From a virus, in the IMG/VR virus record IMGVR_UViG_3300032050_000075, positions 16,960-80,959 of that record: a DNA stretch of 64,000 bases, one strand, 5' to 3'. Below, in pieces: positions 56,050 to 63,958 of the stretch. The notes below the pieces were generated by a model. That model saw only the letters and a program-made list of their open reading frames with translations. It had not been told where the DNA came from and made no database searches. Positions within the stretch are counted from its first letter, which is position 1. Every line of letters starts with the position of its first letter. The translations under genes were made by a program, and so were the position numbers.

Positions 56050-56610
56050 TTAGTTACATGAATCACAGCCACAACTGCAGGCCAGTTTGTCTAATCTCTT
56101 AACAACATAATTATAAATATCCATACCTAACCTAGGAGAATGACAATATTCAACTTTTGCCTTAGCTGCTTTTAACATAGTTGTAAGTAACTGTATTTCC
56201 TTAAGTTTCTCCTTTAGTGGAGCTTGAGGATCACAGTCCTGTATATCTAAGCAACAAAGTAAATCATTTATTTTATTCAAAGCAACAGTTGTACGTAAAT
56301 GATTATACTCTACATTAACAATATCGTTTGGATTAACACTATACTTAACAATGTAGACACCATCAGCAAATTCATTATAGTAATTCCCACAATTAGCTGT
56401 CTGAAGTCCTAAGTCACAAGCACTTATGTTTTCCAAAAAACCAGTTTCCAGATTCTCTATAGAGTAAGAGGTAGTAAAACCAGGAGGAGTAATTTCAATT
56501 TTGGTGCAGTCTATAGGTGCCATGTCACTATAGATACTTGCATCTACTACACGAAAAATACACTTGGTCAGTGTATCCGGTATATCTAAAGCTAATTGAT
56601 GTTTTTCCAT
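56050..56610 (-). CDS. Conserved virion protein with Cys-rich tail (186 aa)
   Basis: A 186-residue protein. The N-terminal 110 residues form a beta domain (FRVVDASIYSDMAP, KIEITPPGFTTSYSI, FADGVYIVKYSV), and residues 115-175 are helical with coiled-coil character (LKEKLKEIQLLTTMLKAAKA). The protein ends LACSCGCDSCN, a CxCxCxxC cluster. This beta-domain-plus-helix layout looks familiar from crAss-like tail proteins at the start of the fibre module. It is the first gene after the terminator that follows the 450-aa gene. Probably a tail or fibre assembly protein; that role is inferred from order. Confidence 0.65.
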   Translation of the reverse strand: MEKHQLALDIPDTLTKCIFRVVDASIYSDMAPIDCTKIEITPPGFTTSYSIENLETGFLENISACDLGLQTANCGNYYNEFADGVYIVKYSVNPNDIVNVEYNHLRTTVALNKINDLLCCLDIQDCDPQAPLKEKLKEIQLLTTMLKAAKAKVEYCHSPRLGMDIYNYVVKRLDKLACSCGCDSCN

Positions 56611-56692: not shown

Positions 56693-58045
56693 TTATGGTG
56701 CTGAAACAGCAGTAACAGCAGTACAAGCTTCTCCAACTCCAAAACAACCTACAGTTTCAAGTTGAACACAGTTAACACCCTGTGCATTTTCAATCCAAGT
56801 CTCTACAAATGTTTCAAAGTCAGTTTGAACACCATCAGCAGCATCTGTAATAATCTCAAGCAAGTATTGATCATTATCAAATGTACCAGTTGGATTATTG
56901 AAACGTGGAACGCTGTGCTGGATGTAGTAACGATAGTATTGTCCTGATCTGTCAATTGCACTATTTACATCATATCCTTGAGTAATCTCACGGATACGAA
57001 GATCCATACCAGTATAGAAGTAGTTCTGACTGTACATTTCGGATTGAATTACATCACGAATAACAGTTTCACCAAAACCAGCACCTTGTACAGGCAAACA
57101 TACTTGTGTAGAACACAGACCTGTAAATGTGCAAGGATCACCATTGTAATCTACTTCAGAAGCATAAATCTTAACTGGTTCAATATATGCCAATACTGAA
57201 TCATTAGGATAGAAAGTACAATCTCCAAAACGAGTATCAATATAACCACCGTTGATAATCAAGCCTGCCAAAGTATCAGCAGGAACCGCATTTGCAGGCC
57301 ATGCTGTAGTACCTTGAATATATGGAATCAAATCTTCCAAGCTAGTTGTAGCACCAGCTGGTACAGATTCGCCATTATCTACATATGCAGCACTTGGAGC
57401 AAGTTGTTCCCAAGTTGCACCAGCGTCAGTAGAATAAGTAATTTGAACATTTACAAAAGGTGAAATCAAAGGACTGTTAACCAAGTTATATGCCCAGTTA
57501 GCATATACAATCAATGGATTAACTGCAACTGGTGCAATAGCATCCTCAGGGCAGCAACCAGTATAAGCATCAGCAGTGTAGTATGTATTACGACTCAAAG
57601 TACGAAGTACAGGTGAACCTTTAACATCTAGACGCAAGTAGTATGTTTCCCCACAGTAGAATACTTTTTCGCAGCTACCAGGATCTTCAAAATTAATCTG
57701 ATTCAAACCAACAGTAACTTGTGAATTTTGAGGATCACAAGGATCAACACGGTAGAATCGAGTAATATACTTTGGATTAATAGTCTTTGACTTGTTTGAC
57801 TCTTGGTAACCTCCGTGAAAAGGACCAATCTTGTCATTCTGATACAAAGAACCAGCAGCAAGAACCAAAGGACAAGCAATAGTACCAGGAACAATTGGTT
57901 GTACTTCCCAAGTCTTAGGATCTACAAATGCAAATTCACCAGTCTGAAGAACGTTATTGGCAGTGCCAAGTACGCCCTCATCAAGTGAGGTAAAAGCACT
58001 TGTTCCAACAAATGCTTTTTGAAAAGCGTGATTAAAATAAGCCAT
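56693..58045 (-). CDS. Major structural protein, possible auxiliary capsid protein (450 aa)
   Basis: A 450-residue beta-rich protein with conserved start MAYFNHAFQKAFVGTSAFTS and a Cys-containing middle (CGETYYLRLDVKGSPVLR). It contains several tidy beta domains and no enzyme motif. Codon choice looks more selective than in neighbouring genes and like that of the capsid gene, and the gene has a 70-base leader and its own terminator, all signs of high expression. In crAss-like virions a second abundant head protein (auxiliary capsid) exists, which makes this a candidate; a tail role is the alternative. The family start sequence is conserved among crAss-like phages in my recollection. Confidence 0.65.
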   Translation of the reverse strand: MAYFNHAFQKAFVGTSAFTSLDEGVLGTANNVLQTGEFAFVDPKTWEVQPIVPGTIACPLVLAAGSLYQNDKIGPFHGGYQESNKSKTINPKYITRFYRVDPCDPQNSQVTVGLNQINFEDPGSCEKVFYCGETYYLRLDVKGSPVLRTLSRNTYYTADAYTGCCPEDAIAPVAVNPLIVYANWAYNLVNSPLISPFVNVQITYSTDAGATWEQLAPSAAYVDNGESVPAGATTSLEDLIPYIQGTTAWPANAVPADTLAGLIINGGYIDTRFGDCTFYPNDSVLAYIEPVKIYASEVDYNGDPCTFTGLCSTQVCLPVQGAGFGETVIRDVIQSEMYSQNYFYTGMDLRIREITQGYDVNSAIDRSGQYYRYYIQHSVPRFNNPTGTFDNDQYLLEIITDAADGVQTDFETFVETWIENAQGVNCVQLETVGCFGVGEACTAVTAVSAP

Positions 58046-58115
58046 TTTTATACAAAAAATTTAAGTTAATAAATATATACTCAATATAGGAAATCCTACA
58101 TAAAGTTCCAAATAA

Positions 58116-58721
58116 TTAGAGATAATCTTTCATCTCATGGTCAAGAAGCCTCATGGCAATCTTGTCTTCTCCAAATGCTTTTAACTGATCTTTCCAGTTT
58201 TGCATTTTATTATGTTCTTCAACTTGCTCCTTCAAAAACTTAAGTGCAAGTTCATACAGCATATGATCACCTTTTTTCATAGCATCACTAGCTAAATCTT
58301 TGATTTGCATAGAGATGGTTAATTCATGATCAAATGAGGTTTTAATAATTTCAGGTAAGCCAGAAAAATTTTGGTTAGGTGCATTAAGCATAGGTGTAGA
58401 TGGTTGTACACCCATTGACAATAGATATGTTCTTGACCAATCAGCATGTGCAAGTTCTTCAGTAGAGTAATTCTTCCAAAGTTTAGCAGCATTAACATAA
58501 CCATTGTTATCTAGCCACATGGACATTGCAAGATAAATTCTAGAAGAATATTCTTCTTGCTGTACTCTATAATTCAAATAATCAATACATTCAGTAGAGA
58601 TCAATGGATTATGGTCTATTGATATCGGGGTTGGTATACCTGCTGCTTTACTAGAAGCACTAGCTGGTGCGGATTCTGCTGGTTTACGAGATAATAAATT
58701 TCTAGATGGTGTTTCGGCCAT
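58116..58721 (-). CDS. Phage ferritin with N-terminal extension (201 aa)
   Basis: Residues 44-200 align with bacterial non-haem ferritin (FtnA type). All ferroxidase-centre ligands of E. coli FtnA have counterparts: E57 (in QQEEYSS), E89 and H92 (in TEELAHADW), E133 (in FDHELTI), Q166 and E169 (in KEQVEEH). Four long helices of the right length are visible, plus a fifth short C-terminal one. The first 40 residues (MAETPSRNLLSRKP, then Ala/Ser/Pro) are extra and look disordered, perhaps a targeting or virion-docking tail. It would oxidise and store iron in a 24-mer cage. It lies inside the structural operon, 4 bases after the connector gene, which is unexpected for a metabolic protein. Confidence 0.9.
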   Translation of the reverse strand: MAETPSRNLLSRKPAESAPASASSKAAGIPTPISIDHNPLISTECIDYLNYRVQQEEYSSRIYLAMSMWLDNNGYVNAAKLWKNYSTEELAHADWSRTYLLSMGVQPSTPMLNAPNQNFSGLPEIIKTSFDHELTISMQIKDLASDAMKKGDHMLYELALKFLKEQVEEHNKMQNWKDQLKAFGEDKIAMRLLDHEMKDYL

Positions 58722-58725
58722 TTTC

Positions 58726-59433
58726 TTATGTATTTGATTCTGATGAATTATTTGCTATGCTGTACTGATTCATAGACTCAATATCTCCAGCTAAGATTTT
58801 AACAGTGTCGTCTATTAATATTTCTGTGATATTATCCTGAAATTCACATTCTACATCTATGGGAGAAGCAGTTAGTGTATATGGATCTACACAATCTAGA
58901 ATCTGAAGTTTTCTTGGTTCACGATAATACATTAAATGCGGATCATGAATATCGAACTCATTGTTATTGTAGATCCTGACTCTATTTGAAACAATTGTGC
59001 AGAAGGTTTCTCCCCATTCAAAACTTGGTTTCTTTAGAGTATCCTGTAAAAGAATTGGAACATTTTGTTCCTCGGCTATAAAAATAACGGCAAGATCCAT
59101 AGGATCTTTACAGCAATCTTTTTTAGCACCAGCACTAATTCTTTTAAACTGCAAGTAGTCATCTGGTAATGGATATGATTCAGCATATAGATTCTTTTGT
59201 AGTACTAGTATTGGAGTTTCTTTTAATAGAATCTGAAGATCATCAATCTTACGGGTAGTTTGTTCATCACCCTGTCTTTCAACATTAAGACCAATAATCT
59301 GTCTTCTAACCCATTGAATCTGTGCCTTATTAAACGCCTCTACAATCTGCCAACATTCAATGTTGTCATAATCATTACTAGCTAACTTATTAAGTCGCTG
59401 TTTAATTTTTAATTGTAGAGTTGTATTGTTCAT
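58726..59433 (-). CDS. Head-tail connector/ring protein (235 aa)
   Basis: A 235-residue protein with an N-terminal helical hairpin (LKIKQRLNKLASNDYDNIE, CWQIVEAFNKAQIQWVRRQI), then RKIDDLQILLKET, and a beta domain (SYPLPDDYLQFKRISAGAKK) ending in an acidic tail. The pattern WxIVEAFNKAQxxWVRRQ with IDDLQxLL is one I know from crAss-like phages, where such proteins sit at the portal as ring/tail-stabilisation proteins (P22 gp4-like function). Its start overlaps the upstream gene stop as ATGA. Ring identity cannot be fixed by eye. Confidence 0.7.
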   Translation of the reverse strand: MNNTTLQLKIKQRLNKLASNDYDNIECWQIVEAFNKAQIQWVRRQIIGLNVERQGDEQTTRKIDDLQILLKETPILVLQKNLYAESYPLPDDYLQFKRISAGAKKDCCKDPMDLAVIFIAEEQNVPILLQDTLKKPSFEWGETFCTIVSNRVRIYNNNEFDIHDPHLMYYREPRKLQILDCVDPYTLTASPIDVECEFQDNITEILIDDTVKILAGDIESMNQYSIANNSSESNT

Positions 59434-60984: not shown

Positions 60985-62001
60985 TTATTGATTCCAATAC
61001 TTCTCAACTTTTTTTGTCAAATTCACAAGAATTTCTTCATTTAGAGGATTCTTGAGGTATTCAACAACTTCTGAGGGGGTTCTACCCATCATAGCACCAG
61101 AGGAGACTTCATAGATAAATCCGTCAGCTTTAGTAGCAATTAACTTATAGTAAGTAGCATCTTTAACAATAGATCTCAGTTTTAATGATTCCATGTCCTG
61201 ATTAACTGCATCCAAGAACATTTGTGCTGCTCTGTTTGCATTTTTCTCAGTACCCTGGCCATTAATAAATGTATCCATGTTATCATACAATACATCTGTT
61301 GGTGTAGACTTCTTGTATTGAACACTACTTACATCAACTACCTTAGCAATGTAAAGTAGTTTATTTGTATTCTTATCAAACAACTTCTGCAACTCAGCAA
61401 GTGCTTTGTTACGAAGCTTTTTACTTTCTGTTTTAGTAGACACAGTATCTTCATACTTGTCTAGGTAAAACTTCGGTGGTTTTTGTCTTGTTCTAGCCTC
61501 TTCATAGCTTTTAGCAATTATAGAAAAGCCACCAGCCTGAATAGCATATAATTTAATCAAATCATATGGATCCTTTGCTGGATCTAAAAACAATGGTTCG
61601 TTACCACAACGAAGTGTTATCTTACTCCAGAACTCATGATTATCAGGTCTAAGTAATTTAACCTTATTCCAAAATTCTGGATCATCAGGATTAATAACGT
61701 TTGCAGCAAGTTCTTTTTCAAGCTGACAAACCGTACTTCTAATCTCTTTAATCTTAGCCTCACGTTGCTCAGGATCTGGTAGCAATTTTACATCTGGTGC
61801 AAATTCATTCAATCCTGTAAGATATCTACTGATACCGTTTAATTCAACACAAGCTAATTGTTCTTCATGATGTACACCATCATATAATGCCAGTCCATAC
61901 TTTTCTAATCCCATGTTCTGTACATTACTATTAAAGTATGGTTTAATAGCAATGGGTCCCTTCTTAATAGCAGGGTTCTGTTCAATTAATGTAAAACTCA
62001 T
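60985..62001 (-). CDS. Capsid-module protein downstream of MCP (338 aa)
   Basis: A 338-residue soluble, mostly helical protein. It has a helical segment with conserved-looking DPEDPEFW/DNHEFW repeats (NPDDPEFWNKVKLLRPDNHE, about residues 100-120), and a C-terminal domain (KLIATKADGFIYEVSSGAMM, GRTPSEVVEYLKNPLNEEIL). The family is known to me only as a conserved crAss gene near the capsid gene. It could be a scaffold, auxiliary head protein or portal-vertex protein. It begins a transcription unit after a terminator, and no protease or scaffold motif is obvious. Confidence 0.6.
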   Translation of the reverse strand: MSFTLIEQNPAIKKGPIAIKPYFNSNVQNMGLEKYGLALYDGVHHEEQLACVELNGISRYLTGLNEFAPDVKLLPDPEQREAKIKEIRSTVCQLEKELAANVINPDDPEFWNKVKLLRPDNHEFWSKITLRCGNEPLFLDPAKDPYDLIKLYAIQAGGFSIIAKSYEEARTRQKPPKFYLDKYEDTVSTKTESKKLRNKALAELQKLFDKNTNKLLYIAKVVDVSSVQYKKSTPTDVLYDNMDTFINGQGTEKNANRAAQMFLDAVNQDMESLKLRSIVKDATYYKLIATKADGFIYEVSSGAMMGRTPSEVVEYLKNPLNEEILVNLTKKVEKYWNQ

Positions 62002-62335: not shown

Positions 62336-63958
62336 TTAGAATGAACCTCCTGTAACAGGGTTTCTCATAACAATCTTCAACACCTTGGTTGGGTCTTTAA
62401 CCCAGATTGCAGGCATTGTTTGTGTCATGAATACACGGTAACCATTGAACTGACCAGAAGACTGGAAGCCTTGGGTACGACCCATGTAGTCCATAGTACC
62501 GTTTTGATACCACCACTTCAATTGATTATCCCAAGACAACTTCAACAAGAAGATGTTATCATTAGTATTATCAGTAATATCGAAGATGATGAAGCTATAA
62601 GATGACAATGGGAAACCATCAATGATTGGGTTTTCAATGTCATTTGTATGCAAGTTGTCAAATGCTGGGTTCAATACGAACTTAACATTTGCCAAGAATG
62701 GAATCACATATGATGTGAATGCAAATCCAAAGTTCAAGTCCATGCTCTGACCAGAAATTGCACCAATACCTGCATCAGATGCAGCTTGGATAACAAGACC
62801 TGAAGATACAGCCTCTCTACGGATTGCTTCATTTACCATTCTCATACCACCCATACCGGTTTGTACAATCAGTTGACGCTTAGGATCTGGACCCTTGAAT
62901 TCAACCTTACCAGCATAGAAGTTGTAGATTTCAGAACGGAACAAATCCAAGCTAAAGCCTGACTTGTTGTATACACGCTTGAATGAGTTATCAAGCTGCT
63001 TCCAGAGACCGACAGACAGACGGATATCATCTGGACCATCCTGACGTACTCTACCTCCTTGTCCCCACATCAAGTAGGTTTCAATGTCATTAGCAACCTT
63101 AGTAAGGTGTGCTGCTTCCATTGTAGTCAAGAAAGTACGAGACAATGAACCATTATTCATTGCACGTTTAACATAATCCTTACCCATACGGCTAACCATA
63201 GTATCCAAGTTAGCTACAGCAGGATCAATGTTCTTATCAAAGTTACGCCAGATTTCAGTTACAGGTACAGTACCATCTGCATTCATACCACCTTTGATCA
63301 TAAGATCAGCACGGCTAGAAATAGAGTAATGTACGTGTGCTTCAGCACCACCTACAAAGTTGTAGAATTCACGGAAGCCAGTAGCTGTGATGATATCAGA
63401 GAATCTTTCTCCGTATTCACCACGAGCAGAACCTTTACGGAAGATCTTGGTACCAGATACAAGATACTGATCAGAATCAATACCGTTACCAGTATCATTG
63501 TTTACGAGTTGTACAGTGTACAAGAAACCATCACCGAGAGGAAGAATATCATCTGCGGTAACGTACATTTCAAAGCCATTGTACTTGTCATAAGTGATGA
63601 TATCACCATGACCAAATTCTCTGCGTGACAATTTGATCTGGAAGGTAGTACCATCAAGACCAACAATACCCGTAGCTTGTGAATCTACAATGTAAGGAAG
63701 ATCCTGTACAACAGGAGTCTGCCACTTGTATTCACCACGTGCATTGTCTACATTAATTACGTTCTTACCACCAAAGGAAGACATCTGATAAAGCGGCATC
63801 TCAACCTTTTGTGCCATTGCCCAAAGGTCAACTGGTCCAAGGTCCATCGGCTCCGCATTCTTCAGCATGTTAACCAGGTGATATGAATCTACGTGCGAAC
63901 TAGCCGCATAATTGGTATCTCGTAGAAATATACCATTGTTTAAAACTGGAGTTGCCAT
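62336..63958 (-). CDS. Major capsid protein (540 aa)
   Basis: A 540-residue protein recognised as the crAss-like major capsid protein, expected to have the HK97 fold. The N-terminal arm region has VDLWAMAQKVEMPLYQMSSF. The middle has GGMNADGTVPVTEIWRNFDK and SRTFLTTMEAAHLTKVANDI, and the C-terminal part has GQSMDLNFGFAFTSYVIPFL and ends VMRNPVTGGSF. Codon use is more selective than in neighbouring genes, as in highly expressed genes. It has its own strong terminator, and the 40 bases upstream visible here contain tandem AAACGAT copies. Portal and terminase genes are expected just beyond the window on the same strand. Confidence 0.93.
   Translation of the reverse strand: MATPVLNNGIFLRDTNYAASSHVDSYHLVNMLKNAEPMDLGPVDLWAMAQKVEMPLYQMSSFGGKNVINVDNARGEYKWQTPVVQDLPYIVDSQATGIVGLDGTTFQIKLSRREFGHGDIITYDKYNGFEMYVTADDILPLGDGFLYTVQLVNNDTGNGIDSDQYLVSGTKIFRKGSARGEYGERFSDIITATGFREFYNFVGGAEAHVHYSISSRADLMIKGGMNADGTVPVTEIWRNFDKNIDPAVANLDTMVSRMGKDYVKRAMNNGSLSRTFLTTMEAAHLTKVANDIETYLMWGQGGRVRQDGPDDIRLSVGLWKQLDNSFKRVYNKSGFSLDLFRSEIYNFYAGKVEFKGPDPKRQLIVQTGMGGMRMVNEAIRREAVSSGLVIQAASDAGIGAISGQSMDLNFGFAFTSYVIPFLANVKFVLNPAFDNLHTNDIENPIIDGFPLSSYSFIIFDITDNTNDNIFLLKLSWDNQLKWWYQNGTMDYMGRTQGFQSSGQFNGYRVFMTQTMPAIWVKDPTKVLKIVMRNPVTGGSF

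Follow-up and report, generated by a model that had tools for sequence, protein, structure and literature searches.

The window, a stretch of 64,000 nucleotides from IMG/VR virus record IMGVR_UViG_3300032050_000075, carries a block of phage structural genes on its minus strand, to which all feature coordinates of the window below refer. Downstream of a crassvirus major capsid protein (MCP; 62336..63958; PF23898, E 4e-31) follow, in this order, a gp33-like protein (60985..62001; hhalign to phiCrAss001 gp33, probability 69%), small basic proteins, a tail-barrel ring protein of the R3/R4 type (58726..59433; hmmsearch, and hhalign to phiCrAss001 gp34/gp35 and phi14:2 gp100), an FtnA-type ferritin (58116..58721), a capsid auxiliary (AUX-like) protein (56693..58045) and a structural protein (56050..56610) homologous to phi14:2 gp098, itself detected by mass spectrometry. 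The MCP family, the matches to gp35/gp34 and gp33, the AUX-like fold and the expected gene order identify the phage as Crassvirales-like. Its nearest annotated MCP is that of Leptolyngbya phage Lbo-JY46 (28.5% identity), followed by those of gut crAss and Cellulophaga phages. Lbo-JY46 (PP438436, L097) is a cyanobacterial phage whose record is not classified within Crassvirales, yet it harbours crass-like MCP, ring and AUX-position genes.

The AUX-like protein was recognised from its AlphaFold2 model, Foldseek comparison and gene position, the model matching 266-residue chains of the phiCrAss001 unique-vertex structures (7qoi_Be and 7qoh_e; E 5e-9, TM 0.53 by target). Because gp36 is present in the unique-vertex entries and the gene position corresponds to that of gp36, the protein is probably the gp36 counterpart, an assignment made from these two correspondences and not from the chain label; gp57, of about 104 aa, is too small to be the matched chain. 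An earlier note on this DNA, made from the sequence alone, had placed the ferritin between a head-tail connector gene and a structural gene, which was right in kind for both the ring protein directly upstream and the AUX-like protein directly downstream. Elsewhere in the late block (5319-28222), very large ORFs of 1,910, 3,335, 1,288 and 1,098 aa are placed where crAss phages carry the virion RNA polymerase and cargo proteins. The phiCrAss001 virion contains MCP, ring proteins and AUX encoded in the corresponding order, and stores cargo proteins in its capsid and tail (PMC10172136), but in contrast to the window no ferritin or DUF5856 gene is found between its ring and AUX genes. Ring and AUX-position genes are likewise adjacent, with no ferritin between them, in phi17:2 and Lbo-JY46 as in phiCrAss001, and the structural regions retrieved for phiCrAss001, phi14:2, phi17:2 and Lbo-JY46 showed no ferritin or Dps-type match.

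The plus-strand frame at 58116-58721 is full of stops, and the 201-aa ferritin ORF runs on the minus strand, left unstated in the earlier note, from 58721 to 58116. Its product matches Pfam Ferritin PF00210 (E 5.6e-21; 75.4 bits, cut-off 24.5), and its best solved relative by sequence is the Vibrio cholerae ferritin 3qz3 (E 4.7e-21); against the NCBIfam FtnA equivalog it scores 66 bits, below the cut-off of 178. Structure prediction, suggested in the earlier note as a check, returned the ferritin fold: the AlphaFold2 model (mean pLDDT 86) consists of a four-helix bundle plus a fifth helix (A-E; residues 43-72, 76-102, 122-150, 153-183 and 187-200), and Foldseek aligned it to 3qz3 with a TM of 0.92 and an rmsd of 1.4. 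In the alignment to Escherichia coli FtnA, E17, Y24, E49, E50, H53, E94, E126, Q127, E129 and E130 correspond respectively to E56 (58554..58556), Y63, E88, E89 and H92 (E88-E89-x-x-H92; 58446..58460), E133 (58323..58325), and E165, Q166, E168 and E169 (E165-Q166-x-E168-E169; 58215..58229). All ten of these iron-binding or assisting residues, the third iron site included, are invariant in 66 distinct sequences (the window's and 65 relatives). The intrasubunit ferroxidase centre is accordingly represented by E56, E89, H92, E133, Q166 and E169, together with Y63; the ligand set listed in the earlier note stands, with the exception of its E57, which was off by one residue.

Among close pairs of phage ferritins the dN/dS of the core is about 0.02-0.12, indicating that the core is under purifying selection, and the N-terminal tail evolves faster than the core. 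A chance ORF is ruled out by the profile match, the structure and the dN/dS values. The gene apparently encodes a catalytically competent FtnA-type ferritin, with ferroxidase activity and 24-mer assembly predicted from the fold and ligands, and the claim that an entire ferritin, catalytic site included, is encoded among the late structural genes of a crAss-like phage was borne out by profile, ligands and neighbours alike. Bacterial non-heme FtnA proteins (PF00210; 3qz3, 1eum) share the A-E fold, the ferroxidase ligands, Y24 and the third iron site, whereas the phage ferritins differ from them in an N-terminal tail of 13-47 residues bearing a shared tag, and in being viral genes within a structural operon. 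Encapsulated ferritins (EncFtn), in which a ferritin-like enzyme is sent to the HK97-fold shell of an encapsulin by a short peptide, are alike in concept only, as EncFtn subunits consist of two main helices and carry their tag at the opposite end, and the shell dedicated to them holds no phage genome. An encapsulated ferritin identity was rejected for the window's protein, which combines five helices, an N-terminal tail and an ordinary phage MCP, versus the two-helix subunit, C-terminal peptide and adjacent encapsulin of that system.

Searching IMG/VR with the ferritin alignment recovered 123 relatives. The ring gene lies directly upstream of the ferritin in 70 of the 80 relatives that were fetched, the two genes being -4 to 21 nt apart, while in the remaining ten the ferritin lies elsewhere upstream of the MCP or on a short contig. 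The same gene therefore recurs at the same locus in crAss-like relatives, as the earlier note had proposed to verify, and with 123 relatives sharing the gene and a conserved slot an assembly artefact or contamination is ruled out. Among cultured phages, a tblastn search over 50,697 phage records gave weak matches only, mostly to unannotated contigs, some of them probably host DNA. In the phylogeny, the 54 distinct phage ferritins group together in a single clade (support 91/89); its sister is a chromosomal Flavobacteriaceae ferritin (87/97), and the ordinary Bacteroidota FtnA proteins are far removed from it. These sister ferritins (Winogradskyella, Maribacter, Lutibacter; L083-L093) are 44-50% identical to the phage proteins and, unlike them, are chromosomal, lie amid cellular genes and have no tail. 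A single cellular origin of the phage ferritins, presumably by transfer from cell to phage, is the simplest reading of this tree. One ferritin nested in the phage clade is carried by a 5.5-kb contig binned as Bacillota (L082 1090-1689, from a Tissierellales MAG), probably a misbinned phage fragment.

A second scan, with the downstream AUX-like protein as query, showed that in many relatives another ORF, 135-174 aa long, occupies the slot between ring and AUX genes. This alternative occupant belongs to DUF5856 (PF19174; Pfam E 1e-13 to 1e-21) and to PHROG_858, annotated 'starvation-inducible', and its profile matches Dps/HP-NAP structures weakly, over about 50 residues (best E 1e-5). The Dps ligand pattern H-x(8-11)-H-x14-D-x3-E, with the spacing of H51, H63, D78 and E82 of Dps, occurs in 98/98 Dps-type sequences, and H62, H74, D89 and E93 are invariant in the alignment of the slot protein. 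The DUF5856 protein thus occupies the same slot with the same tag as the ferritin and differs from it in size and in its Dps-type ligands. Across 222 loci with both flanks present, the slot holds the Dps type in 131, ferritin in 74, neither in 13 and both in tandem in 4, frequencies that are biased by the queries used and by the many loci that are near-copies. The relatives with an empty slot indicate that its function is dispensable. A ferritin search in the records of Dps-type phages, run with no positive control, found none. In another crAss-like lineage, a ferritin and a Dps-type gene sit side by side between portal and MCP, their order being reversed between two phages (L014 9546-10492 and L059 9956-10914).

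The ring-protein tree, whose support is SH-aLRT only and some of whose branches are long, requires at least 17 ferritin/Dps changes, and the nearest relatives of the window include both alleles (L129 with ferritin, L134 with the Dps type). One pair of nearly identical phages, L142 (ferritin) and L145 (Dps type), shows 100% identity between the ring proteins and 98% between the AUX proteins. At the DNA level the two agree at 99% as far as codon 11 of the slot gene, which is itself identical through that codon (MAEQPRNLLKR); beyond it the cores differ, and identity returns at the end of the slot gene. Identity through the tag followed by divergent cores shows that the tag stayed in place while the core behind it was swapped. 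The slot is allelic, FtnA-type and Dps-type cores being exchanged behind a common tag, which the earlier note had no means of seeing. Between the slot and the AUX-like gene, the window has a spacer (58046..58115) with a promoter-like TTTG-N20-TATATTG (58112-58109 and 58088-58082), and in most of the relatives aligned a TTTG-N~20-TATATT arrangement is kept ahead of the AUX-like gene, irrespective of whether ferritin, the Dps type or nothing fills the slot. Its resemblance to a Bacteroidota promoter suggests that the AUX gene may start its own transcript. The same spacer in relatives often contains an inverted repeat (GGAAAG...CTTTCC-like).

The N-terminal tail of the window's ferritin (codons 1-38; 58608..58721) is predicted to be disordered, with pLDDT below 50 at residues 1-7 and 13-28 and the first helix beginning at residue 43; the tail was correctly described in the earlier note as absent from normal ferritins, the nearest cellular ones having none. 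Conservation within it is concentrated in a short hydrophobic-K-R motif. The commonest form of this tag, found in both the ferritin and the Dps type, is [LM]-L-K-R followed by P, T, S, N, D or E and then by a variable linker; the window's version is NLLSR (codons 8-12; 58686..58700). The N-terminal pattern occurs in 35/57 distinct ferritins, in 76/98 distinct Dps-type proteins and in 1/1,423 other distinct ORFs of these loci, so that a general feature of late proteins is ruled out. An earlier, looser estimate had put the background at 3%, probably by counting overlapping or antisense ORFs and bacterial loci. Tail match scores have a median of 36, against 23 for shuffles. The same residues can open both kinds of protein, MAEQPRNLLKR in L003 (ferritin) and L145 (Dps type), MEAKPRMLKRP in L071 and L192, and the two proteins of a single phage (L055) start with MQKIVRPTVF and MQKIPRPSVL. 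The strict pattern is absent from about 40% of distinct ferritins, the window's own being NLLSR and not LLKR, and five distinct ferritins sited elsewhere in the genome have no LKR tag. In the portal-MCP lineage (L014 and L059), the ferritin and Dps-type N-termini (MALDIN.../MIDIN...) are apparently alike in a few sequences and differ from the LKR tag. The sharing of tails could partly reflect the placement of recombination breakpoints.

A precedent for a virion location comes from the Kuttervirus Sajous1, in which gp217, named 'Ferritin' in a 2024 paper, was detected by mass spectrometry in CsCl-purified virions with 10 spectra, the authors warning that low counts may be debris (PMC10892097). 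By its coordinates and a Pfam scan we identified gp217 (L292 7948-8301, MW021757) as a DUF5856 protein (E 1.3e-28); it is of the Dps type, not the FtnA type, and has no LKR tag. Kutterviruses are unrelated myoviruses in which the DUF5856 gene lies close to a tail-completion gene (PMC10892097), versus the ring-AUX slot of crAss-like phages. The virion evidence derives from the DUF5856 protein of this other phage. DUF5856 is also present in many Ackermannviridae records, where it is named hypothetical, putative structural or starvation-inducible regulator.

Characterised members of the ferritin superfamily oxidise and store Fe(II), and the N-termini of ferritin are exposed on the exterior of the cage. 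The ferritin and Dps-type cores have little sequence similarity, both belonging to this superfamily, and the exchange of one for the other argues for selection on iron oxidation or sequestration and not on a specific structure. The tag common to both argues for a shared destination, and N-termini outside the cage would leave the tail able to bind a partner. A virion site is favoured by the position of the slot between ring and AUX genes and by the DUF5856 protein of Sajous1 in purified particles, encoded near a tail-completion gene. The best explanation, which we consider just on the probable side, is that a tagged, interchangeable iron-oxidising core is sent to the virion and limits Fenton damage, the virion location and role being deduced from these lines of evidence. 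The fuller version, a modular iron-detoxification slot in which a docking tag and repeatedly swapped FtnA/Dps cores yield a particle-borne, iron-oxidising cage that protects the genome, is more tentative and falls somewhat short of an even chance. In the best explanation, the ferritin derives from a cellular ferritin resembling that of Flavobacteriaceae, has an N-terminal tag specific to the phages joined to it and is produced alongside tail-ring and capsid proteins. Up to 24 outward tags could dock the cage to the virion or to an assembly component, where the core would oxidise Fe(II) with O2 or H2O2 and store the mineral, with less Fenton chemistry around the packaged genome and the particle. 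The DUF5856 core with the same tag would do the equivalent job in sister phages, the cores being swapped at the locus, and protection from Fenton chemistry both in late infection and in the free particle would be the most economical function. The earlier note had left several roles side by side, from iron withdrawal or oxidative protection in the infected cell to protection of packaged DNA or a cage on the virion; the cage attached through its tail now gains most support, from the motif, the tag on a Dps-type core at the same locus and the Kuttervirus virion homologue.

The main rival, which we regard as unlikely, is a soluble scavenger of iron or peroxide that acts in the host cytoplasm late in infection, outside the particle, and guards replicating DNA and enzymes until lysis. 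Ferritin and Dps act so in cells, and the close spacing of the ferritin to the ring gene suggests late transcription. Phages are also known to carry ferritin-superfamily stress proteins, including the Dps and manganese catalase of Gratiaviridae, which have been linked to host oxidative tolerance (PMC8008677), and the Dps genes near replication genes in Lactobacillus phages (PMC6669764); these are Dps or catalase and not FtnA, and are not known to show a shared tag or allelic exchange. A cytoplasmic role would nevertheless leave unexplained a specific N-terminal tag common to two very different cores, the constant position of the slot between ring and AUX genes, and the presence of a DUF5856 protein in virions.

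The positively charged tail might instead bind the phage DNA, much as E. coli Dps does through its N-terminus, so that the protein would be co-packaged with or coat the DNA and would not attach to a capsid or tail protein. Tails are mostly net positive (median +3 in ferritins and +2 in the Dps type), and the exchange partner is of the Dps type, but the charge is modest (-1 to +8) and a short conserved hydrophobic-K-R motif with a variable linker is more like a peptide-docking motif, which makes DNA docking improbable. Bacteroidota have many TonB receptors, which would suit a ferrojan-horse entry in which virion-borne iron aids adsorption via host TonB-type iron receptors. Such entry has been suggested for Vi01-like phages because the same DUF5856 protein is encoded close to a tail-completion gene, but Salmonella TonB and FeoB mutants were infected normally (PMC10892097), mineral within a closed cage would not be displayed as a siderophore is, and nothing in the loci ties the slot to receptor-binding genes, so that we judge it very improbable here. 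Repurposing of the cage as a scaffold or decoration for which iron chemistry is irrelevant would fit the fixed place among structural genes, but is scarcely credible given the invariance of ten ferritin iron-site residues and four Dps-type ligands that a scaffold would not need.

Ferritin-superfamily genes in phages, and the Dps-type virion protein of Sajous1 noted as 'ferritin', are already known. Several phage ferritin-superfamily proteins are present in BFVD; three from uncultured Caudovirales phages named 'prohead protease' (A0A6J7XDU5, A0A6J7WPK9, A0A6J7WIS1) contain ferritin-like stretches with weak Foldseek E-values and probabilities of 0.98-0.99, and may represent a Dps-like domain fused with a capsid maturation protein. 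As the earlier note had supposed of an iron-storage protein in a crAss structural module, we found in the openly licensed literature no account of the shared tag, of an FtnA-type ferritin in such modules or of swaps between it and a Dps-type core, and no mention of DUF5856 in the part of that literature searched.

Virions are usually thought to be metabolically inert. If the preferred reading of a tagged core sent to the virion is true, crAss-like particles would carry their own chemical protection through a recurrent, tagged and interchangeable iron-oxidising module, with the N-terminal tag as a concrete candidate docking peptide. It would likewise provide a likely function for PHROG_16594 and DUF5856, both listed as of unknown function, and would turn the ferrojan-horse idea and the oxidative damage of free phages into specific experimental questions.
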